Positions 6,760-64,000 of a stretch of DNA of 64,000 nucleotides are shown here, piece after piece. Every line of letters begins with the position of its first letter. Within the stretch, counting starts at the first letter, position 1. This DNA comes from a virus: IMG/VR virus record IMGVR_UViG_3300050343_000177, positions 16,432 through 80,431 of that record, one strand, 5' to 3'. The notes beneath the pieces are model-generated. The model saw only the letters and a program-made list of their open reading frames with translations. It was not told the origin of the DNA and did no database searches. The position numbers and the translations under genes are program-made.

Positions 6760-7133
6760 CTCAATGATGTAGGCAGGATGAGGGCGATAAAGTTCTGCAC
6801 CAAGAAGCTTTCACAGGGTACCGACTATATCTTCACCTTTAAAAGGGCTGGACGCTTAATTAAGGAGACTTTACTCCTCAGGTAGTCTGTGAACGTTCCT
6901 TAGGTGTACCTAAGGCTTCGCTGCTGATTGCCATATCTTTCGACTTAGGGTTCCAGCAATTCATCCAGTTTTAAAACGACCAAGTGTTTTACCAATCGTT
7001 ATCAATCCACATTTCTGGGATAACTCCTAAACTAAAAGGTTTATAAGTGACTTCGACGTGTCACATAATACGATATTAATAGTTATATTAAAGAAGTAGT
7101 TGATGTATACCGAAGCCTCGGTGTAAAGAGAGT
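6760..7133. promoter_or_regulatory. divergent intergenic region with four inverted repeats
   Basis: Lies between the divergent capsid gene and HNH gene. It holds AGGAGactttaCTCCT (about 6863-6877), the 18-bp palindrome CCTTAGGTGTACCTAAGG (6898-6915), GTGAC/GTCAC (7047-7064) and ACCGAagccTCGGT (7109-7122). The last stands just before the ribosome-binding site of the HNH gene. Presumed 5' leaders and promoters for both directions; no clear sigma-70 promoter is assigned. Confidence 0.4.
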
Positions 7134-7649
7134 ATGTCAGAATTTATTGATGTCAAAGAATGGGTACCAGTTCATACACTTCCAGGGTTCGAATGCTGCA
7201 TTGAATATTATGTATCTCACGATGGAAGGGTTATGTCAACTAAAGGTGGCAAAGAGAAAATCCTCAAAGGAGCTGTTATTAAAAATGGCTATCACAAAGT
7301 CACACTTCAGCAACGATTAGGGCAGAAAGGAGAAATTCAACCCTATGTTCATACACTTGTAGCCCTTGCGTTTTTACCACCTCCACCTTCTCCTATAGGA
7401 CGTACACGTGGTTCATCTGTTGTGGATCACAAAGACGAGAACAAGTTAAACAACTGTGTGTCTAATCTTCACTGGATTTCTGTCAAGGAAAATATATGCA
7501 AACATCCATATCGTAAATTTCAATCAACTCAAAAGACGGATGATGAAGTTCTTGTTCAACAGTGCAGGAATCGATATTCACATAAGATGGCTGTACGTCG
7601 TCAAAGAGAGAAACAAAAAGCGGTTAAAATAGTAGAAAGTGATAATTAA
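7134..7649 (+). CDS. HNH homing endonuclease with NUMOD4-like N terminus
   Basis: A 171-residue protein. Residues about 9-40 match the NUMOD4 pattern (W-x-P-V-x-x-x-P-G-F-E, then Y-x-V-S-x-x-G-R-V-x-S). Residues about 80-120 carry the HNH core: 'HTLVALAFLPP', 'VVDHKDENKLNN' and 'NLHWISVKEN'. Such enzymes nick or cut a target and spread their own gene. It is encoded on the plus strand inside the minus-strand virion block, next to the major capsid gene, a typical site for a mobile endonuclease gene. Confidence 0.88.
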   Translation: MSEFIDVKEWVPVHTLPGFECCIEYYVSHDGRVMSTKGGKEKILKGAVIKNGYHKVTLQQRLGQKGEIQPYVHTLVALAFLPPPPSPIGRTRGSSVVDHKDENKLNNCVSNLHWISVKENICKHPYRKFQSTQKTDDEVLVQQCRNRYSHKMAVRRQREKQKAVKIVESDN

Positions 7650-16163: not shown

Positions 16164-16897
16164 CAGAATGCCCTCGCCATTGAACGACTGCGTGCAGACT
16201 GTCTATTAGCTTTCTGAGAATCTAAGTTATCTTGATAGCCCATTGTCTTACGTTGCTGTTCACCTGTCTCTGTTATGTTTTTAGTACTAGTATCAGATTG
16301 ATACATACTGGCTTCTTTTGTTGCATCTGCTCCATACTTGCTAGCTTCGGCTGATTTCTTAGAACTATACTTACTAGCATCTGCTGATTGCTTCGCACTA
16401 TATTTAGATGCACCTGCTGCTATATTTGCCTGTTGATTTCCATAGCTACCTTTAATGTTAGCTAATTGTTTATTCTGTTTACCTTGCGCAATAGTGGTAA
16501 GCCTATCTTGACGTCCTTTACTCTTGTTTAATAAACGCTGCTGCTCTCCTGTAGCGGCAACCATTCCTATGTCTCTCTCATTTTGATTATCAGCAAACTT
16601 ATCTTGTAATTCAAACTGACCAGCCATTGACTGCATACCATAATTAAACTCTTGCTGCATATTGGATGCAGTATTTCTCTGCTCCAAATCAGCGGCGTGA
16701 GTCATATTTCTCTGTGCAATTCCAGATTGTGTCTTTGCCATACCTTTTGCTAAGGATTGGTCAAAACCAGACTGCACCATGTTGGCTTGAAAGTTCCGTT
16801 TCATCGCACGGCCTTCAGAATCATCTTTATCAGGCTTAAAGTTATAGAACTCATTCATTACTTGGTTAAATCCAAAGTTACCTTGATCAGCAGCCAT
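16163..16897 (-). CDS. Gln/Ser/Ala-rich helical virion-region protein
   Basis: About 244 residues from the Met at 16897 (a GTG at 16915 is an alternative). It is a long polar, Gln/Asn/Lys/Ser/Ala-rich helical protein with repeated 'AS-K-Y-S/G' units around residues 160-205, a repeat of roughly 11 residues. Similar rod-like proteins occur as internal or fibre virion components. No family recognised. Confidence 0.6.
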   Translation of the reverse strand: MAADQGNFGFNQVMNEFYNFKPDKDDSEGRAMKRNFQANMVQSGFDQSLAKGMAKTQSGIAQRNMTHAADLEQRNTASNMQQEFNYGMQSMAGQFELQDKFADNQNERDIGMVAATGEQQRLLNKSKGRQDRLTTIAQGKQNKQLANIKGSYGNQQANIAAGASKYSAKQSADASKYSSKKSAEASKYGADATKEASMYQSDTSTKNITETGEQQRKTMGYQDNLDSQKANRQSARSRSMARAF

Positions 16898-34765: not shown

Positions 34766-35041
34766 ATGCCTACTACAGCTCCAACTAAAACTAAAACTAT
34801 CCCTACTGTCACACCTGATTCATATGAGTGGCACACCTGTGCTGACGGCCAGTATCGCGTAGTTCAAACTCGATTTGGTCTATACAAAAGTGTTGACAAG
34901 CTAAATAATGATCTCATTACTGGATTAACTGAAGAAGCAATTCACAATTGCACTCCTCTGCATTTACTGGCACAGCAGCCTGACTATGACAAACGTTACG
35001 ATACCGTTATAGGTAAAGCTACTGTGACACCTGACTTATGA
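34766..35041 (+). CDS. hypothetical protein, paralogue A
   Basis: 91 residues with a Lys/Thr/Pro-rich start. The core 'FGLYKSVDKLNNDLITGLTE' and 'CTPLHLLAQQPDYD' is shared with the gene at 35434. The stop overlaps the ATG of the next small gene (ATGA). No family recognised; the pair is a tandem duplication. Confidence 0.65.
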   Translation: MPTTAPTKTKTIPTVTPDSYEWHTCADGQYRVVQTRFGLYKSVDKLNNDLITGLTEEAIHNCTPLHLLAQQPDYDKRYDTVIGKATVTPDL

Positions 35042-35162
35042 ATCCAGAAAAACAATTAAAGAAACTAGCGAAAACTTACAAGGTATCGATGCAGTTCACT
35101 TGAGAACTAACGATGCCTACTGGAATCAGCACCCTGAAAAAGTATATAAAGTCCAGCGTTAA
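35038..35162 (+). CDS. small Lys-rich protein, paralogue A (frameshifted)
   Basis: Starts M-N-P-E-K-Q-L-K-K-L-A-K-T-Y, the same beginning as the gene at 35706. A shift after the Tyr continues 'IDAVHLRTNDAYWNQHPEK' to 35162. Coupled by ATGA to the preceding gene, as its paralogue is. Confidence 0.45.
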
Positions 35163-35433: not shown

Positions 35434-35709
35434 ATGACAACTGCTACAAAGACTAAAAAGAAAGATATTCTCACTGTTTCTACTGATAACTATGCCTGGT
35501 TCACTTGTGAACACGGCTCCTACCGTGTCGTCGAGACACGCTTTGGCTTATACAAAAGTATTGATAAGCAAGGCAACGACCTTATCACTGGCTTAACTGA
35601 GCAAGCAATTCACGACTGTACTCCCTTACATTTATTGGCACAGCAGCCTGATTACGATGGAAAATATGACACCGTTATCGGTTCTGCATCCGTAACTCCT
35701 GACCTATGA
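35434..35709 (+). CDS. hypothetical protein, paralogue B
   Basis: 91 residues, a close paralogue of the 34766 gene ('FGLYKSIDKQGNDLITGLTE', 'CTPLHLLAQQPDYD'). AGGAG stands 10 nt upstream, so unlike the mini-genes it has a normal ribosome-binding site. The stop overlaps the ATG of the next small gene. Confidence 0.7.
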   Translation: MTTATKTKKKDILTVSTDNYAWFTCEHGSYRVVETRFGLYKSIDKQGNDLITGLTEQAIHDCTPLHLLAQQPDYDGKYDTVIGSASVTPDL

Positions 35710-35834
35710 ATGAACATAAACAATTGAAAAAGCTTGCGAAAACTTACGCTAAAGCTGACTCCTGTGTTGATAGAGACACCGCTCAGAAGCTTATTAAAAA
35801 AGCTACAAAAATCAGAGCTAAATTAGAAAAGTAA
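35706..35834 (+). CDS. small Lys-rich protein, paralogue B
   Basis: 42 residues, M-N-E-H-K-Q-L-K-K-L-A-K-T-Y then a strongly basic helix. It pairs with paralogue B as the 35038 gene pairs with paralogue A. Possibly nucleic-acid binding. Confidence 0.6.
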   Translation: MNEHKQLKKLAKTYAKADSCVDRDTAQKLIKKATKIRAKLEK

Positions 35835-36394: not shown

Positions 36395-36450
36395 CTTAAA
36401 TACACAAGCAGGTCACTACTTATTATTTAAGTAGCTAGACTTGCTTTATT

Positions 36451-36522
36451 GGGGCATTAGTGAAACGGTTATCACAATAGATTGTCTATCTATTATTAGC
36501 AGTTCGAATCTGCTATGCCTCG
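36451..36522 (+). tRNA. tRNA-Asp (GTC)
   Basis: A 72-nt cloverleaf: acceptor GGGGCAT/ATGCCTC with discriminator G (as in Asp tRNAs), D arm GTGA...TCAC, anticodon stem ATAGA/TCTAT with loop TTGTCTA and anticodon GTC, and T arm around TTCGAATC. CCA is not encoded. The only tRNA recognised in the window. Confidence 0.88.
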
Positions 36523-36540
36523 TTATAAGTACTACTGAAT

Positions 36541-43443: not shown

Positions 43444-44532
43444 ATGTCTTCAACTATTCTCACGCCCAGGTCTAATCCCCTTAAGGATACCTGGGATTCT
43501 TATCTCAACTGGGTCACAAGCACTAACAATCGTCTTTATGTCGGACTCTTCGGCACATTGATGATCCCTTGCTTGCTTGCGGCCACTACTTGCTTCATCA
43601 TTGCTTTCATCGCTGCTCCACCTGTGGACATCGATGGTATTCGCGAAGGTGTCTCTGGCTCTCTTCTGTGGGGTAACAACATCATCTCTGGTGCTGTTGT
43701 CCCTAGCAGCAATGCAATCGGTCTTCATATGTATCCGATTTGGGAGGCAGCATCTCTCGATGAATGGCTCTACAACGGTGGTTGCTATCAGCTAATTATT
43801 TTCCACTTCCTTATTGGAGTCTGGTGTTACGCCGGACGTGAGTGGGAACTTTCCTATCGCTTAGGTATGCGTCCTTGGATCTTTGTAGCTTTTACTGCAC
43901 CTTGTGCCGCTGCTACTGCTGTATTCCTTATCTATCCTATCGGTCAAGGTTCATTCTCCGATGGCATGCCTCTTGGTATCTCCGGCACTTTTAACTATAT
44001 GTTGGTTTTCCAAGCAGAGCACAACATCTTGATGAACCCTCTACATATGCTCGGCGTAGCTGGAGTATTTGGAGGCGCACTGTTCTCTGCAATGCATGGA
44101 TCACTTGTTACCTCTTCACTTGTTCGTGAAACGACTGAATTCGAATCACAAAACAATGGCTACAAGTTCGGTCAAGAACAAGAGTCGTATAATATCGTTG
44201 CAGCGCATGGTTACTTCGGTCGCCTAATCTTCCAATACGCAAGCTTCAATAACTCTCGTTCACTTCACTTCTTCTTGGCAGCATTCCCTGTTGTTGGTAT
44301 CTGGTGTGCAGCACTGGGCGTTAGCACAATGGCGGCAAACTTGAATGGACTGAACTTCAATCAGTCAATTCTTGACACTCAAGATCATGTTATCCCTACT
44401 TGGGCTGACATTCTGAATCGTGCCAATCTTGGCTTTGAAGTGATCCATGAAAGGAACGCCCACAACTTCCCGCTCGATCTTGCGTCAACTAGCGCCACAC
44501 CTGTGGCCTTGATTGCACCATCTATTGGTTAA
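43444..44532 (+). CDS. psbA: photosystem II D1 protein
   Basis: A 362-residue, complete D1. Ligands and functional residues are in place: the His at 'AEHNILMNP' (H190), His in 'AMHGSL' (H215), 'SRSLHFF' (H272), and the '[13 protein letters not shown]' end with the manganese ligands and the processing site. The residue equal to position 130 is Glu ('[11 protein letters not shown]'), the high-light D1:2 type. Phage D1 replaces the damaged host D1 and keeps photosynthesis going during infection. Numbering is +3 relative to the usual form because of the N terminus. A hairpin terminator follows. Confidence 0.98.
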
Positions 44533-45706: not shown

Positions 45707-45919
45707 GTGACCAACGAATGGTCTGTCGTTTATATCTCAAATCACATGGAAATGTCACGCGAGCAGCTTCAAGAGCTGACTGAAATAATTGAAGACACGA
45801 TTCAATACAGTTGCGATCAATGGCAAATCTCAGGCGAGAAAGCCTGGACTGTCCTTCACTATCTCTCAATTGCAAAGCTTGCTGAGCTTGAAGGCTTAGT
45901 CACTTCAGATGTTGCCTGA
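45707..45919 (+). CDS. small acidic helical protein
   Basis: 70 residues, 'EMSREQLQELTEIIEDTIQ' then 'GEKAWTVLHYLSIAKLAELE'. The stop TGA shares one base with the ATG of the next gene. No family recognised. Confidence 0.6.
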   Translation: MTNEWSVVYISNHMEMSREQLQELTEIIEDTIQYSCDQWQISGEKAWTVLHYLSIAKLAELEGLVTSDVA

Positions 45920-46080
45920 TGGCAGCGTCTGTAAGCAACGTCTATGACGTCCTTGAATGCGTCAAAAATAAAGTAGAAGAGCTATGCGTAGCAGAAGAGG
46001 TTTCTCCTCTGCTTGTATGGCTATTGCTACGGCAGCAAGCTGACTATCAGCTGTTACTTCTACAAGATTCAAACAAATAA
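45919..46080 (+). CDS. small helical protein
   Basis: 53 residues, 'VYDVLECVKNKVEELCVAEE' then Leu-rich 'LLVWLLLRQQADYQLLLL'. Coupled to the previous gene by TGATG. No family recognised. Confidence 0.6.
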   Translation: MAASVSNVYDVLECVKNKVEELCVAEEVSPLLVWLLLRQQADYQLLLLQDSNK

Positions 46081-48696: not shown

Positions 48697-48851
48697 ACTT
48701 ACACCAGATGCTAATGGCACGTGAGCAGCTAATGCATGACATTGCTTGTATTATTGAATCTCACTTTGGTGAAGTCGAATACAAAGATGAAGTTATTAAG
48801 CAGTTATGCGATGCCGTTTGTGAAAACTTTTCTATTCCAGACGAATCATGA
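48693..48851 (+). CDS. small helical hypothetical protein
   Basis: 52 residues from the ATG at 48693; amphipathic, 'QLMHDIACIIESHFGEVEYK'. ATGA overlap on both sides. No family recognised. Confidence 0.6.
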   Translation: MNLHQMLMAREQLMHDIACIIESHFGEVEYKDEVIKQLCDAVCENFSIPDES

Positions 48852-49198
48852 TGAAATCCTACGAGCTCTATGTATTCACACAACCCAATTGCCCACCATG
48901 TGAGCGACTAAAAGCTCACGTCAGTTGCCTTACTGAAGCTCAGAGAGCCACGTTGCATTACGTCCCTCTACGTGCACCTAACGGTAACTACACAGCCCTT
49001 GCAGAGGAACTTGAGGTTACTAAAACACCAACCTTGGTTGTGGCCTACGAGGGACTTTCTTGCCGTCTCGATGAAGACGGAGACGAAGACTGTGACTATA
49101 CGGAAGAAGCAGTCGAGAGATTCATTGGCGCGAATGCAATCATTGAAAATCTTGACTCAACCATCGACGCTTACACCTACGCAAATCCTCCTGAATGA
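48848..49198 (+). CDS. glutaredoxin/thioredoxin-like protein
   Basis: 116 residues. 'YVFTQPNCPPCERLKAHV' gives the C-P-P-C redox site near residues 15-18, and 'VTKTPTLVV' the cis-Pro loop. The C-terminal half is acidic. A thiol donor for the ribonucleotide reductase encoded downstream is a likely role (inference from the operon). Confidence 0.85.
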   Translation: MMKSYELYVFTQPNCPPCERLKAHVSCLTEAQRATLHYVPLRAPNGNYTALAEELEVTKTPTLVVAYEGLSCRLDEDGDEDCDYTEEAVERFIGANAIIENLDSTIDAYTYANPPE

Positions 49199-49697: not shown

Positions 49698-50234
49698 ATG
49701 AATATCTACTATACATACGCCTATTTACGAGAAGATAAGACGCCTTATTACATCGGCAAAGGTAAAGGTCCAAGAGCATTTAGAACTTCTAATCGCCACT
49801 GTCCTTGCCCCGCAGATAAATCACGAGTTCTTTTTCTTAAGACAGGATTATCTGAAGCCGACGCTTTCAAGCACGAGGTTTATATGATTGCTGTGCTCGG
49901 TCGTAAAGACTTAGGCACGGGGATACTACGAAATCTTACTGACGGCGGGGAAGGCACATCTGGTAACAAACGGAGCGAAGAGTTCCGTGCTCGTATGTCT
50001 GAAGTTCATTCAGGTAAAACTATATCTGAAGAACAAAAGCATCAGATAAGTAAGACACTTACAGGTCGCACAATTCCTCCAGAAGCTAGACGCAATATGA
50101 GCCTATGTAAGTTAGGCAAAAAGAAATCTCTTGAAACTCGCAAGAGAATGTCTAAACCAAAATCAGCCGAAACTCGCAAGCGAATAAGTATCGCACAAAA
50201 AAATCGACACAGGAATAATAATGAGCAAACGTAA
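49698..50234 (+). CDS. GIY-YIG homing endonuclease with NUMOD3 repeats
   Basis: 178 residues. The N terminus 'YYTYAYLREDKTPYYIGKGK' is the GIY-YIG core, with Arg and the downstream 'HEVYMI' Glu. From residue about 95, four NUMOD3-type DNA-binding units follow ('SGKTISEEQKHQISKTLTGR' and similar). A typical free-standing homing endonuclease; its end overlaps the IF-1 gene by 14 nt. Confidence 0.92.
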   Translation: MNIYYTYAYLREDKTPYYIGKGKGPRAFRTSNRHCPCPADKSRVLFLKTGLSEADAFKHEVYMIAVLGRKDLGTGILRNLTDGGEGTSGNKRSEEFRARMSEVHSGKTISEEQKHQISKTLTGRTIPPEARRNMSLCKLGKKKSLETRKRMSKPKSAETRKRISIAQKNRHRNNNEQT

Positions 50235-50451
50235 GCAAGGGGTCATCGAGACCAAAGGCACTATCTATAAAGAGAGTGGTAATGGATACTTCAATGTATC
50301 TCTGGATGAACCAGCTGGTCACACTGCACTTTGTCGTGCGTCAGGACGTTTAATCACACGTAAGATTCAACTTCTTGTCGGCGACAAAGTTACAGTTGAA
50401 CTCAGTGAATATGACCTTGGAAGGGGTCGTATAACCCTGCGTGAAAAGTAG
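50221..50451 (+). CDS. infA: translation initiation factor IF-1 homologue
   Basis: 76 residues, the usual IF-1 size (about 72). 'GTIYKESGNGYFNVSLDEP' then a Ser-Gly-Arg-x-x-T-x-K-I-Q region, 'LLVGDKVTVELSEYDLGRGR' and a final I-T-L-R-E-K match the S1-like OB fold of bacterial IF-1, including the G-D-x-V-x-V-E-L-S core. IF-1 binds the ribosomal A site during initiation. A phage copy is rare. It could favour phage mRNAs, for instance the many leaders here without a Shine-Dalgarno sequence. Confidence 0.85.
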   Translation: MSKRKQGVIETKGTIYKESGNGYFNVSLDEPAGHTALCRASGRLITRKIQLLVGDKVTVELSEYDLGRGRITLREK

Positions 50452-50491: not shown

Positions 50492-50929
50492 ATGACATTA
50501 CTAGAACAAGCTATCGCCTTTCGCGAAGCATTCAATCAAGAGATGATTGACGGAATGACAAGGTATGGCTTTGTCAAAGAACGTCTGTTCAATATGCAAG
50601 CTGGTCTTATTGAAGAAGAAGCTAATGAGTTTCTCCAAGCTGCACGTGACTTAGAGGGAGCACCAAACACTCCTGCTAATCACATCGAAGTACTCAAAGA
50701 ACTAAGTGACGTAGTCTTTGTCTGTTATCAGTTCGCTGCTGCCTACGGGTTAGATCTAGACACAGCTATGCAACGTGTTTATGAATCTAATATGAGTAAG
50801 CTAGATGATGACGGCAACCCAATCTACCGTGATGACGGTAAGGTTCTTAAAGGACCTAACTATAAGAAACCAGATTTGTATGACCTGGTGCCACTTAGCA
50901 ATCTTCAATATGATACTTCAAGCAAATGA
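50492..50929 (+). CDS. MazG-like NTP pyrophosphohydrolase
   Basis: 145 residues. 'LIEEEANEFLQAARDL' and 'LKELSDVVFVCYQFAAAYG' carry the E-x-x-E and E-x-x-D metal sites of the all-alpha NTP-PPase family, and the end 'DDGKVLKGPNYKKPDL' is typical of phage forms. Common in cyanophages; may act on (p)ppGpp or aberrant nucleotides. Overlaps NrdA by 4 nt. Confidence 0.88.
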   Translation: MTLLEQAIAFREAFNQEMIDGMTRYGFVKERLFNMQAGLIEEEANEFLQAARDLEGAPNTPANHIEVLKELSDVVFVCYQFAAAYGLDLDTAMQRVYESNMSKLDDDGNPIYRDDGKVLKGPNYKKPDLYDLVPLSNLQYDTSSK

Positions 50930-52350
50930 TGGAAACTAAAGCAGATACAAACAATTTAATAGCAAGAACGGGTAGGGTCCAAGGTTGGATTGATAATCCC
51001 GAAAGTCGCTTACCCGTGAGCTGCACGGTGATTAATGTTCAAGACTCAATGGATTATGGCCAAGACTCAATCGAAGCAAGCTGGCGATTTGTTTCGCACG
51101 CTCTACGCTACGGAGCAGGAGTTGCTGTACATTTATCCGATGTTAGGCCAAGCGGAACAGAGAATGGTAAAGGCTTGGTTGCCTCGGGTCCTGTCTCATT
51201 TGGAAAAATCTACAGCTGCTTAAATGAACAACTCCGCAGAGGTGGCGTGTACAAGAACGGAGCTGTGGTTCTTCATCTTGATATTTCTCATGGTGACATA
51301 CTTGAGTTTGTTACAACACCTCGACATGAGCTTCCATGGGCCAAGCGTTGCGTCAATCTGACGACTGCTCTTTGGAATGAATCTACGGATGATGTCAAAA
51401 ACGAGATACTAAAAGGCATTGCTCGTGGTGACATTTGGCTTGCCAAGATTCGCTATGACCAACACGGTAAGCGTATCTTCGCAAATGTTTGCCTTGAAGT
51501 CTTTCTTAAGTCACGGGGCACTTGCTTGCTACAACATCTGAACCTAGGCGCTTGTCGTATTGAAGATATCTCTACCGCATTCGCTGTTGGTATGAGTGAG
51601 CTGATTGAGCTTCACGGTAAGACTGGTGTTGAAAAGACTGGCGAATATTTGATTCAAGAAGCAGACCGTCAAGTAGGTCTTGGTCTGTTGGGTCTAGCCA
51701 ATCTTCTTGCCCTAGAAGAGGTGACTTATGCCGAGTTTGCTGATGCACTTGAGGAGTTACCTCAAGCGACTCCTAAGGCTACTAAAATCGTAGCAGCACT
51801 AAGCGCAGGTTTCTCTGTTGCTGCATCACTTGCACGCTCTGCCAATATGGACAGGGCATTTGCAATTGCACCAACTGCTTCCTGTTCTTACCGTTATACA
51901 GACCGAGCAGGCTATACCACAGCCCCCGAGATTGCACCGCCAATCGGGCGCACCGTGGATAGGGACAGTTCTACATTTGGCGTTCAACAGTTTGATTACG
52001 GCAACGTAGAAACTGCAGATCAGGTCGGTTGGGATAACTACTTCCGTGTAGTTAATGGCATCGTTCAAATGATGCACGACACCGGCCTCAGCCATGGCTA
52101 TTCATTCAATAGCTGGTCAGACGTTGTTCAATACGATGAGGACTTTATTCAGTCTTGGTTAGCTTCACCGCAGACCTCACTGTATTACAGCCTTCAAGTT
52201 AATCAGAACACGCAGGCCAAAGATGATGCCATGGTTGCTTTAGACGATCAGTTCAACTTTGACTTCTCTGATATTTTTGAAGATCATGATACTGACGCTA
52301 ATTACGACTTATTTAATGACCCCACTACATGTGTGGGTTGTGCAGAGTAA
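50926..52350 (+). CDS. nrdA: ribonucleotide reductase alpha subunit, class I, short form
   Basis: 474 residues, shorter than T4-like or host NrdA. Conserved: 'SCTVINVQDSM' (substrate Cys), 'ANVCLEVFL' (N-x-C-x-E, the thiyl and its neighbours), 'TCLLQHLNLGACR' (second redox Cys) and the C-terminal C-V-G-C pair for reduction by thioredoxin or glutaredoxin. No long N-terminal ATP-cone. A beta-subunit gene follows, so it is class I despite its class II-like size, as described for cyanopodovirus/cyanosiphovirus-type enzymes. Confidence 0.92.
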   Translation: MMETKADTNNLIARTGRVQGWIDNPESRLPVSCTVINVQDSMDYGQDSIEASWRFVSHALRYGAGVAVHLSDVRPSGTENGKGLVASGPVSFGKIYSCLNEQLRRGGVYKNGAVVLHLDISHGDILEFVTTPRHELPWAKRCVNLTTALWNESTDDVKNEILKGIARGDIWLAKIRYDQHGKRIFANVCLEVFLKSRGTCLLQHLNLGACRIEDISTAFAVGMSELIELHGKTGVEKTGEYLIQEADRQVGLGLLGLANLLALEEVTYAEFADALEELPQATPKATKIVAALSAGFSVAASLARSANMDRAFAIAPTASCSYRYTDRAGYTTAPEIAPPIGRTVDRDSSTFGVQQFDYGNVETADQVGWDNYFRVVNGIVQMMHDTGLSHGYSFNSWSDVVQYDEDFIQSWLASPQTSLYYSLQVNQNTQAKDDAMVALDDQFNFDFSDIFEDHDTDANYDLFNDPTTCVGCAE

Positions 52351-52368
52351 ACCCTACAACATATTCAA

Positions 52369-53112
52369 ATGACCAAAGCAGCAACTAAATACATTCACCT
52401 CCATCAGCGCAAGCGTACCTGGACACCAGTTCAAGTCTCTGCTGGTCAGCTGTTGGCTGGTGGCGAAGAAGCAGTGCAACGTGCTCTTGCTCTTCGTAGC
52501 CTTGAGATTCCCGTAGGTGACTTTATTGCTGAAGCAATGAAGGGTGATCTACCTCAGGGTATTGAGGCCGAAGGATGCAGAGAGCTGCTGCTTTCTAATG
52601 TAAAAGATGAAGAGAAACATGACCTCGCACTTAATTTCGCGGCTGAAGCACATCAGATCCCCGTTAAATTTGAGAAAGAAGCTGCGAGGATTACTAAAGC
52701 GTGGCTCGAACTCGACAGGCACCCAGTCCTCAAGGCAGTTGTCCTCGAACGGTCTGTGTTCTTCGTGCTCCTGCCCATATTCCGATTCCTTGGAGATACC
52801 GGACTTAGAACCACTTCTGCAGACATTAGCCGAGACGAAACAACCCACGTCGCTGCCAACACAATCGTCTGCCAAGAGCTCGGTCTTAAGACTGACAAAG
52901 AACTCAATAAACTTAGAAGAGCTACGGTCGCTTGGGTGCTTCAATCCCTCCAAGGGGAAGCAGATCATAAACATCTCTCGTCAAACTTCTGGTTGGGATG
53001 TTCGGATAGTCTTTACACCACCGGTAAGGCGTTAGGTCTATCTGACACTAGAGCTAGCAGGATGCCTGCATTTTTCGAGACTGCAAACCAAAATCTTCCA
53101 CAATATGCTTAA
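52369..53112 (+). CDS. nrdB: ribonucleotide reductase beta subunit, class I
   Basis: 247 residues, a short ferritin-like NrdB. Metal-ligand segments: 'NVKDEEKHDLAL' (E-x-x-H type), 'ERSVFFVLLPIFRFLGDTG' and 'DETTHVAANTIV' (E-x-x-H). Several Trp/Tyr near the C terminus could carry the radical. Directly follows nrdA. The class I small subunit confirms the class of the pair. Confidence 0.9.
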   Translation: MTKAATKYIHLHQRKRTWTPVQVSAGQLLAGGEEAVQRALALRSLEIPVGDFIAEAMKGDLPQGIEAEGCRELLLSNVKDEEKHDLALNFAAEAHQIPVKFEKEAARITKAWLELDRHPVLKAVVLERSVFFVLLPIFRFLGDTGLRTTSADISRDETTHVAANTIVCQELGLKTDKELNKLRRATVAWVLQSLQGEADHKHLSSNFWLGCSDSLYTTGKALGLSDTRASRMPAFFETANQNLPQYA

Positions 53113-58079: not shown

Positions 58080-59755
58080 GTGCACTCTGATACGACTGAC
58101 ATAGATGTCAGACGCTGTCAGTGGCTCCTGCGTGAGTTCCTAGAGCCGTCTGATGACGGTGAGTATGAGTCTTACTTCGTCCCTGTCATGGCTGCCTGCG
58201 CTGGCGTTGGCCATGTCCTGTTTGATGACTGGGTTGACTGGGTATTACGTGGTCATCACGGTGAGAAGCCTGAGAACTCACAGCCATTTAAGTGGCACGG
58301 TCTTGGTAACTTTGCTGGTCATACTTCACTGTATGCATTAGCCAAGAAACAGGATCGTGGCTGGACACTTAAGCTCCCACGTGACTTAGTCTTTGGAGCT
58401 GTTGGATCTGCTGTTGGTTATACCGAAGTAGACCCACAACCTGATTTTGCTGACGTTATACTTGCAGCGGGTAAAGATAATAAACCGGAGAAAAATATGC
58501 TTGAACCAGAACCGTTACCTGATGTATCGGTTGCAAAAACTAGAGGTCGTCCTAAGAAGTCTGCATCTGATGCAGCTAAGGAACGTGAAGAAGATGTCCG
58601 TCAAGTTAAAGAGATCCTCAAAGATCTACGTAAGAATGAACTGACTGGAGCGATTGAATATACAGACAGCACTGGTCGCACTATCTCATTGCAAGGTAAT
58701 GACCTTGACTTGATGACGACCAAGCTTGCTTGTGAGTATGGTGTGTTCATTGTTGAGCCTCGGATAAAATCTGCGATTCAATATGCAGCAGTAAGAATTC
58801 TTACTGTCCGATCCGTCGTTACCTCGATCACTGCAGTGCTCACGCTAAGCCTCACGAGGCGTGGGATCGTATCGGTGAAGTCTTCCTAGGTAATAAGCAC
58901 AACATCGCCACACTCGCCATGCAGCGCATGATGATTGGTGCAGTAGCTCGTGCCTATAACCCTGGCTGCTCGATGTCCTGGCTACCGATCCTGGTCGGTG
59001 CACAAGGCGTTGGTAAGTCGATGTTCGCTCGCAATCTTGTTCCACCTGCTTTGTTCTCTGAGGTAACTACACCTCTAGATACATTGATGAAAGAACAGTA
59101 TCGATTGCACGTTGCATGGCTGCTTGAGTTACCTGAGATTGATAACTACTTCAACATCAGGAACATTGAGAACTTTAAGAACCTTATTACCACTCGTGCT
59201 GATGAAGTTCGCAGACCATATGCTAGTCTTCCAGAGCGACTATTCCGTCGCTTTGTATTGATTGGTACGACCAATCGCAACCAGTTCCTTGTAGATAGCA
59301 CTGGCAACAGACGCTTTGTACCACTAGAAATTGGTGGTGGCTTCCAAATTCCATGGAAGCAATTGGTTGATGAGCGTGATTCACTATGGGCGGCAGCCGT
59401 TGAGGCTTATCGCAGTGGTGTGGGATATGAATTCAATAGCGGTGAGATCGCTGCTATCTCTGAATACATTCAAGAGTTTGGTGACCCTGATCCTTGGATG
59501 GAGAAGGTCTCGCACTATGTCTCTATCAAGCCAGAGGTCACAGCTGCTGAGGTTCTAACCAATGCACTGGAGCTAGATCCACGTAACCAAGGCAGACGTG
59601 AAGCACGTCGTGTCGCTGATGTCCTGCAATCACTGGGCTGGAGACGACTCGTCACCTCCCGTAAAGATGCAAACGGTAAGTCAAAGTCAGTTCGTATCTG
59701 GCAGCGACCTAAGAATGATCCTCTTCAAGACAACCATTATCTTAATGACTTCTAG
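58080..59755 (+). CDS. VirE-type primase-helicase (frameshifted)
   Basis: N-terminal frame: a PriCT-like part 'YFVPVMAACAGVGHVLFDDW', a basic linker, then 'LDLMTTKLACEYGVFIVEPR'. After a shift near 58797 it continues 'RIGEVFLGNKHNIATLAMQR' and the SF3-like helicase: Walker A 'VGAQGVGKS', Walker B 'LLELPEID', sensor 'LIGTTNRNQFLVDSTGNRRF'. The domains and order are those of the virulence-associated E family helicases found in phages and plasmids. Confidence 0.8.
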
Positions 59756-63062: not shown

Positions 63063-63563
63063 ATGCCTGCACCAAAAGGTGACCCCTGTTATATCAAAAA
63101 TAAAGATAGATACTTTATGAGTATCGCAACTGCAATCGCCCGTGGCTCAACGCATCCGATCGTTCCTGGTGGCTGTGTCTTGATCCGTGATCGTGAAGTC
63201 ATTGGTGATGGACGCTCTGTCCTAGCTCAATCCAAAGTAGAAATTGATTGTATTACCTATGCCATTGCCACTTGCGCCAAACGAGGCACGCCCACCACCG
63301 GAGCTGTCATCTACAGCACCCGTTACCCATTCTCTGCATCTGTTTTTCAAGCTTACTTAATGGGTATACGTAGGTTTGTAGTTGCCGCTCACGAGTGGGA
63401 GCCTTACTATAAGGATGAGTTCAGACGTGCTGCACGTTTGGCAAGAGAGTTGTCTATAGCTATTGAACCACTGTTTGATGATGTAGACCAACGGTTTACA
63501 AAGAACCCACACGAACTTGATGAGTTCGATCCACAAGATAAAACTGATTTAGATAATGACTGA
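63063..63563 (+). CDS. cytidine/dCMP deaminase-like protein, zinc motif lost
   Basis: 166 residues. 'GGCVLIRDREVIGDGRSVLA', 'KVEIDCITYAIATCAKRG' and 'TTGAVIYSTRYPFSASVFQA' reproduce the order of a dCMP-deaminase fold. The H-A-E is V-E-I and the P-C-x-x-C is P-F-S-A-S, so zinc binding is probably lost. The C terminus is acidic. It directly precedes the DNA polymerase, with 8 nt overlap. Confidence 0.6.
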   Translation: MPAPKGDPCYIKNKDRYFMSIATAIARGSTHPIVPGGCVLIRDREVIGDGRSVLAQSKVEIDCITYAIATCAKRGTPTTGAVIYSTRYPFSASVFQAYLMGIRRFVVAAHEWEPYYKDEFRRAARLARELSIAIEPLFDDVDQRFTKNPHELDEFDPQDKTDLDND

Positions 63564-64000
63564 ACTACTATTTGACATAGAAAGCACGGGCTTACTCCGT
63601 GTCGGATCTACCATTCACTGCATCGTCATGCGTGACATGGATGATGTAGAAGAAGCACAGGTGTTTGATTACAAACCTGAACGCGCTGTGATTCAAGGTG
63701 TGAAACAATTAGAGAAGGCTGATGTATTAATTGGTCACAATATTATTTCCTATGACATCCCCTTACTCAAAGAACAGTTTCCAGACTTTACCTTTGGAGG
63801 TGAGGTGCTTGATACTCTTGTGCTCTCCCGTCTCTTTTATCCTCATATTGAAGATCGTGATTTTGAAAGACGCCCTCAAGGTATGCCGCAACGCCTTTAT
63901 GGACGCCATAGCCTCGAAGCCTGGGGACACCGATTAAAATGTTTCAAGGGTGACTATCGGTAAGCACGAAGCTGCTTGGGATAAATATTCACCTGAGATG
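63556..64000 (+). CDS. T7-like DNA polymerase, N-terminal part (runs off the window)
   Basis: The visible part is the 3'-5' exonuclease domain: 'LLFDIESTGLL' (Exo I, D-x-E), 'ADVLIGHNIISYDIPLLKEQ' (Exo II) and 'DTLVLSRLFYPH', then 'GRHSLEAWGHRLKCFKGDY', all as in T7-type DNA polymerases. The frame breaks after G-D-Y-R at 63963, but another frame continues 'GKHEAAWDKYSPEM' to the edge, so a base shift is likely. It replicates the phage genome. Confidence 0.85.

Follow-up and report, generated by a model that had tools for sequence, protein, structure and literature searches.

A reading frame of 76 codons in an uncultured virus raises the question of whether marine cyanophages carry a translation initiation factor of their own, where such a factor comes from and what it would do on the host ribosome. 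The gene starts with ATG and occupies 50221..50451 (+) of the window, by which we mean the whole 64,000-nt stretch analyzed (positions 16,432 to 80,431 of IMG/VR record IMGVR_UViG_3300050343_000177). We read its product as a core IF-1 of picocyanobacterial type that would bind the 30S A-site, supplement or displace the host IF-1 and contact the decoding center in an altered way, and we give this reading as a whole a probability of about 0.6.

IF-1 family membership and genome context

The initial annotation had described a 76-residue ORF with the size and OB fold of IF-1, and the ORF is exactly as described; the structure prediction and family search that it called for both place the product among IF-1 proteins. 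The protein scores 62.1 bits against the NCBIfam equivalog TIGR00008 (infA; cut-off, 61.15) and 55.6 bits against Pfam PF01176 (cut-off, 30.2). That the first score barely exceeds its cut-off speaks against our reading, but the same profile gives the sole picocyanobacterial IF-1 60-68 bits, so the narrow margin casts no doubt on membership. In a sequence search of solved structures, all 12 matches are bacterial IF-1 (best E, 7e-15). The AlphaFold model, built from 44 aligned relatives (mean pLDDT, 84.5), superposes on 30S-bound IF1 of Escherichia coli (9fco_I; rmsd, 0.9) and Thermus thermophilus (1hr0_W; rmsd, 1.1), fitting free as well as 30S-bound chains at about 1 Å. It has strands at residues 8-20, 23-28, 35-40, 56-62, and 68-74 and a helix at 43-46; the model and the PDB matches thus give the fold typical of IF-1, an OB barrel of about 70-75 residues in which a short helix connects the third strand to the fourth. 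We conclude that the product of this gene is a member of the IF-1 family. With bacterial IF-1 (infA; TIGR00008, PF01176; PDB 1HR0 and 9FCO) it shares length, OB fold, C-terminal Arg and most 30S-facing residues, and it passes the curated profile cut-offs. Its differences are two residues inserted before Gly28-His29 (mature E. coli numbering), a beta1-beta2 loop that reads GNG where bacterial IF-1 has PN(A/T), a C-x-C-R-A strand and the absence of Arg at both positions reported to contact A1492/A1493.

The source record is an 80.4-kb contig of an uncultured marine cyanophage carrying psbA, hli and an integrase along with cyanophage-type genes for terminase, virion proteins and ribonucleotide reductase. 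The gene for photosystem II D1, psbA (43444..44532, +), is 76-77% identical in DNA to psbA of cyanophages and identifies the phage as one of them. The closest sequenced relative is Synechococcus phage S-EIV1 (KJ410740), by far the best match of the terminase (58.9% identity) and the only match of a virion protein (54.4% identity). Together with a primase/helicase gene (58919..59755, +; phrog_1313), these features uphold the claim that the IF-1 is phage encoded. Upstream of IF-1 lies a thioredoxin-like gene (48848..49198, +; PF13098), and downstream follow genes for a MazG-like pyrophosphohydrolase (50492..50929, +; PF01503, phrog_671), ribonucleotide reductase alpha (nrdA; 50926..52350, +; PF02867, phrog_367) and class Ia ribonucleotide reductase beta (nrdB; 52369..53112, +; phrog_6799, E 6e-99, with cyanophage homologues). 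A GIY-YIG/NUMOD3-like homing endonuclease gene (49698..50234, +), called from PHROG homing endonuclease and weak NUMOD3 matches, overlaps the IF-1 start by 14 nt at its 3' end. It was not found in the syntenic relatives and therefore is probably an insertion directly before IF-1.

The integrase gene (PF00589, phrog_1) lies outside the window (L037, 5169-5975, -), and the phage may have the capacity for integration. A piece of a DNA polymerase exonuclease is found at 63556-63963 of the window, and an NblA-like ORF at 45919-46080 gave no match in profile searches. Flores-Uribe et al. 2019 (cited in PMC8776855) described a marine cyanophage lineage of which this record may be a member; that lineage reportedly carries an integrase, NblA and a split DNA polymerase. 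The window also has a tRNA-Asp (36450-36523), a group I intron (6802-7039, -; RF00028, 80.9 bits) adjoined by an HNH endonuclease gene (7134-7649, +) and a duplicated small gene (34784-35079 and 35452-35747; 296 nt, copies 72% identical). Between 26900 and 39640, about 20 terminator-like CCCC-TAAC-GGGG hairpins, complete with a T run, each precede a conserved stretch resembling TTTCATTGTGTTCTTTA, and TGTGTTCTTTA has 12 matches versus 2.2 expected. Often spaced 200-500 nt apart, with many ahead of a small ORF, they look like an array of terminator-plus-promoter mini-gene cassettes.

Conservation within the lineage and occurrence in other phages

To sample the lineage independently of IF-1, we selected the best 80 of 216 relatives by primase/helicase and sought IF-1 in these contigs by profile, counting as informative those with 8.5 kb or more of sequence upstream of the helicase. 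IF-1 is present in 22 of 22 informative contigs. Eight contigs are without it, and none of these extends beyond 7.7 kb upstream of the helicase. Of 35 IMG/VR loci, 31 have the gene in the same form, and the order thioredoxin-IF1-MazG-nrdA-nrdB is kept in nearly all 31 of these relatives; in a second scan, nrdA-nrdB lies downstream of IF-1 in 60 of 61 loci, the remaining locus ending at the contig end. Between relatives, synonymous divergence is close to saturation, whereas the IF-1 protein is mostly 70-87% identical to the window copy and among the most conserved products of its neighborhood, with a median dN/dS of 0.068 for unsaturated pairs. The recurrence of the same gene form, its synteny and this dN/dS rule out a chance ORF. 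One relative (L029) has a broken IF-1 frame, and the window copy is itself somewhat odd in the lineage, with Glu for the usual Pro63 and Ala for the usual Cys36. Thus, IF-1 is a fixed, core gene of this S-EIV1-related marine cyanophage lineage. This history also brings close to refutation the idea that the gene is a neutral passenger captured from the host and useless to the phage, for which the existence of a host homologue speaks but which purifying selection at a dN/dS of about 0.07, the prevalence and the fixed position across divergent relatives leave with next to no likelihood.

IF-1 genes are uncommon in phages, as had been supposed: only 36 of 50,697 phage records have IF-1-like matches (E<=0.01), some of them probably host DNA, and no cyanophage is among the 36, nor does one appear with the host protein as the query. 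S-EIV1, which has the terminase and virion genes in common with our record, is itself without IF-1 by tblastn and has no significant profile match with filters off. One of the matching records, OR844994 (L271, SA 1306), carries an ordinary Firmicute IF-1 identical letter for letter to that of a Macrococcoides (L086); this contig, and perhaps similar phage contigs, is probably host DNA. Huge phages are known to encode IF1 (Al-Shayeb 2020, PMC7162821). The IF1s of huge and jumbo phages (Lak, LR756511, Phosso, DAC16) are likewise phage encoded but branch outside the clade of our phage and picocyanobacterial proteins, and they reside in genomes of about 180-600 kb, compared to at most 106 kb for the longest records of the cyanophage lineage. 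Beyond the huge-phage report, we found no literature on IF-1 in cyanophages. As far as the literature could be searched, it appears to be new that IF-1 occurs throughout a lineage of cyanophages of about 80-106 kb, that this IF-1 is akin to an unusual picocyanobacterial type and that the residues reported to contact A1492/A1493 are constantly lost.

Kinship with the picocyanobacterial IF-1

The best cellular matches of the phage protein are the IF-1s of Prochlorococcus and Synechococcus (57-61% identity), which are encoded next to a thioredoxin reductase gene in the loci that we read. Of 101 picocyanobacterial genomes, 100 have no IF-1 other than this divergent type. In a class-wide cyanobacterial sample it occurs in 31 genomes, the remaining IF-1 matches being far weaker (best, 8.7e-15 versus 8.3e-36), and no genome of this sample was seen with both types. 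Picocyanobacteria thus use a divergent IF-1 instead of the usual cyanobacterial one. Two of the 31 genomes (G141 and G246), which we take to be Synechococcus elongatus, have a more distant version (70%) without a long basic tail, and they too have no copy of the ordinary infA.

Phage and Cyanobiaceae/probable S. elongatus proteins form a joint clade with support of 100/100, and three features are common to phage and picocyanobacterial IF-1: a Pro-x insertion before Gly28-His29, the GNG loop and the C-x-C-R-A strand. In the alignment, every phage row and every Cyanobiaceae/S. elongatus row has the Pro-x insertion; no other cyanobacterial row does, and among the rows of other bacteria it occurs in about 4% (a single Fermentibacteraceae MAG). 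The picocyanobacterial and probable S. elongatus proteins, with the same insertion and motifs, are therefore the closest cellular relatives of the phage IF-1. The phage form is set apart by an added MSKKAN-like N-terminal extension of about 6-7 residues, by the lack of the Gly/Arg- or Asn/Lys-rich basic tail of Cyanobiaceae IF-1 and by [IV]TRK-I-[QH] where the host proteins have TKFR-I-K or TKNK-I-K. Two other readings were considered and rejected. The phage gene is not a recently captured ordinary bacterial or ordinary cyanobacterial infA, since it groups with the picocyanobacterial type; nor is the host type a second paralogue that accompanies a canonical infA, since a single match was obtained in 100 of the 101 picocyanobacterial genomes and the two types are separate in the class-wide sample.

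Trees of about 75 columns do not fix the root of the phage/picocyanobacterial clade or the direction and age of the transfer, and in approximately unbiased (AU) tests on them a clade of Cyanobiaceae and S. elongatus without phage (p 0.28), one of phage and Cyanobiaceae without S. elongatus (p 0.37) and one of all cyanobacteria plus phage (p 0.21) all stand unrejected. Transfer from virus to host is allowed by this unfixed root and by a host type that stands alone, far from other cyanobacterial IF-1s. In such a scenario, which we regard as improbable, the ancestor of S. elongatus and picocyanobacteria would have lost its ordinary infA and taken up a phage-type IF-1, while the phages kept a form tuned at the decoding center. 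If it were true, the most abundant phototrophs of the ocean would rely on a protein of viral origin as their sole IF-1.

Decoding-center contacts and the proposed role of the phage factor

For Clostridioides difficile IF1, PMC10913371 assigns K39 and M42 to the 530 loop, R41 and R46 to A1492 and A1493 in their flipped state, and H35, Y60, R64, and R66 to the S12 side. In 60 of 60 readable phage copies, R41 is replaced by I/V and R46 by Q/H, so that the pair of arginines assigned to A1492/A1493 is absent from the phage proteins, while every cellular IF-1 sampled has K/R at position 46. In the window copy, the second of these changes falls in codons 48-52 (KIQLL; 50362..50376, +), the stretch after the beta3-beta4 helix, where the Gln of codon 50 is equivalent to C. 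difficile R46 and E. coli R45; the phage proteins have Arg-Lys at E. coli positions 42-43 instead. Basic 30S-facing residues elsewhere are kept, with K/R, R/K, and R at the C. difficile positions K39, R64, and R66, and the C-terminal Arg, which is R69 in E. coli, is present as well; the roles of these residues are taken from PMC10913371 and PMC4611024. In E. coli numbering, the 30S-facing K/R38, Y/F59, R63, R65, and R69 are all conserved. We do not treat R41 and R46 as family defining, since the host's only IF-1 also lacks R41 (T) and has just a Lys at position 46. Among other phage IF-1s, those of Phosso (N) and L035 (H) likewise lack Lys/Arg at the R46 position, at most a hint that phages may repeatedly loosen this contact.

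With the family, fold, ancestry shared with picocyanobacterial IF-1, conservation, synteny and loop substitutions established here, we infer ribosome binding, time of expression, displacement of the host IF-1 and the effect on initiation as follows. Its fold and residues, together with the known behavior of IF-1 (PMC4611024), lead us to expect that the phage protein binds the 30S A-site during initiation, most likely between h44, the 530 loop and S12 like other IF-1s. The gene sits among nucleotide-supply genes, and a promoter scan scored shuffled sequence higher in number of promoter-like sites than the real one, with none immediately ahead of IF-1; with no such site of its own, it is probably cotranscribed with MazG, nrdA and nrdB. 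In infected cells, the product would add to or displace the one IF-1 that the host has, keeping initiation fast for the phage. With both basic residues reported to contact A1492/A1493 gone from the loop and Arg-Lys at positions 42-43, it would probably bind or leave the decoding center differently from the host factor.

The loss of both contacts could equally mean weakened or altered function, which speaks against our reading. A poor or slowly released IF-1 that fills the 30S A-site and depresses host initiation early in infection would account for the absence of R41 and R46 from every readable phage copy; IF1 has been hypothesized to inhibit protein synthesis at high concentration, and a peptide derived from its loop has been used as an antimicrobial (PMC10913371). 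However, the retained OB core, K39, R64, and R66 equivalents and C-terminal Arg and the strong conservation of the gene in its neighborhood fit an active factor as well, and phage messages depend on the same ribosomes. We consider such a shut-off of the host unlikely.

The initial annotation had proposed that the factor shifts start-site choice so that phage messages without Shine-Dalgarno (SD) sites are favored over host messages. Its premise that many genes of this genome start without such a site is borne out: SD sites precede 10 of 55 genes in the window (18%, versus an intragenic background of about 6%), one of these sites being the AGGA at 50211..50214 (+), 6 nt before the IF-1 gene itself. 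IF-1 together with IF-3 also contributes to the fidelity of initiation when the 50S subunit docks (PMC4611024), which lends the idea some plausibility. The proposed effect finds no support, however, since S-EIV1, without IF-1, has equally few SD sites (15 of 102 genes, 15%; Fisher p = 0.65 versus the window). Cyanobacteria in general often lack them as well (PMC4535381), so that host and phage messages do not differ as the idea would require. The scarcity of SD sites thus looks like a trait of the host or lineage that needs no special IF-1, and we think it quite unlikely that favoring SD-less messages is what the phage factor does.

Another possibility, which we likewise rate as unlikely, is that the protein has put its OB fold to a new use, acting as an RNA chaperone or transcription antiterminator whose target is not the ribosome. 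E. coli IF1 is reported to have activity of this kind. IF-1 is an S1-family OB-fold protein (PMC13030852), and the window has roughly 20 terminator-like hairpins, but nucleic acid chaperoning alone would not need the 30S-facing residues that the phage protein conserves.

IF-1 of huge phages was reported without a tractable host system. Here, the gene is fixed in marine cyanophages that are widespread and infect hosts with only one IF-1, an unusual one. The consistent two-residue change at the decoding center enables a clean comparison of host and phage IF-1 on the same 30S subunit, one that addresses both the role of the A1492/A1493 contacts in initiation and what a phage gains from an initiation factor of its own.
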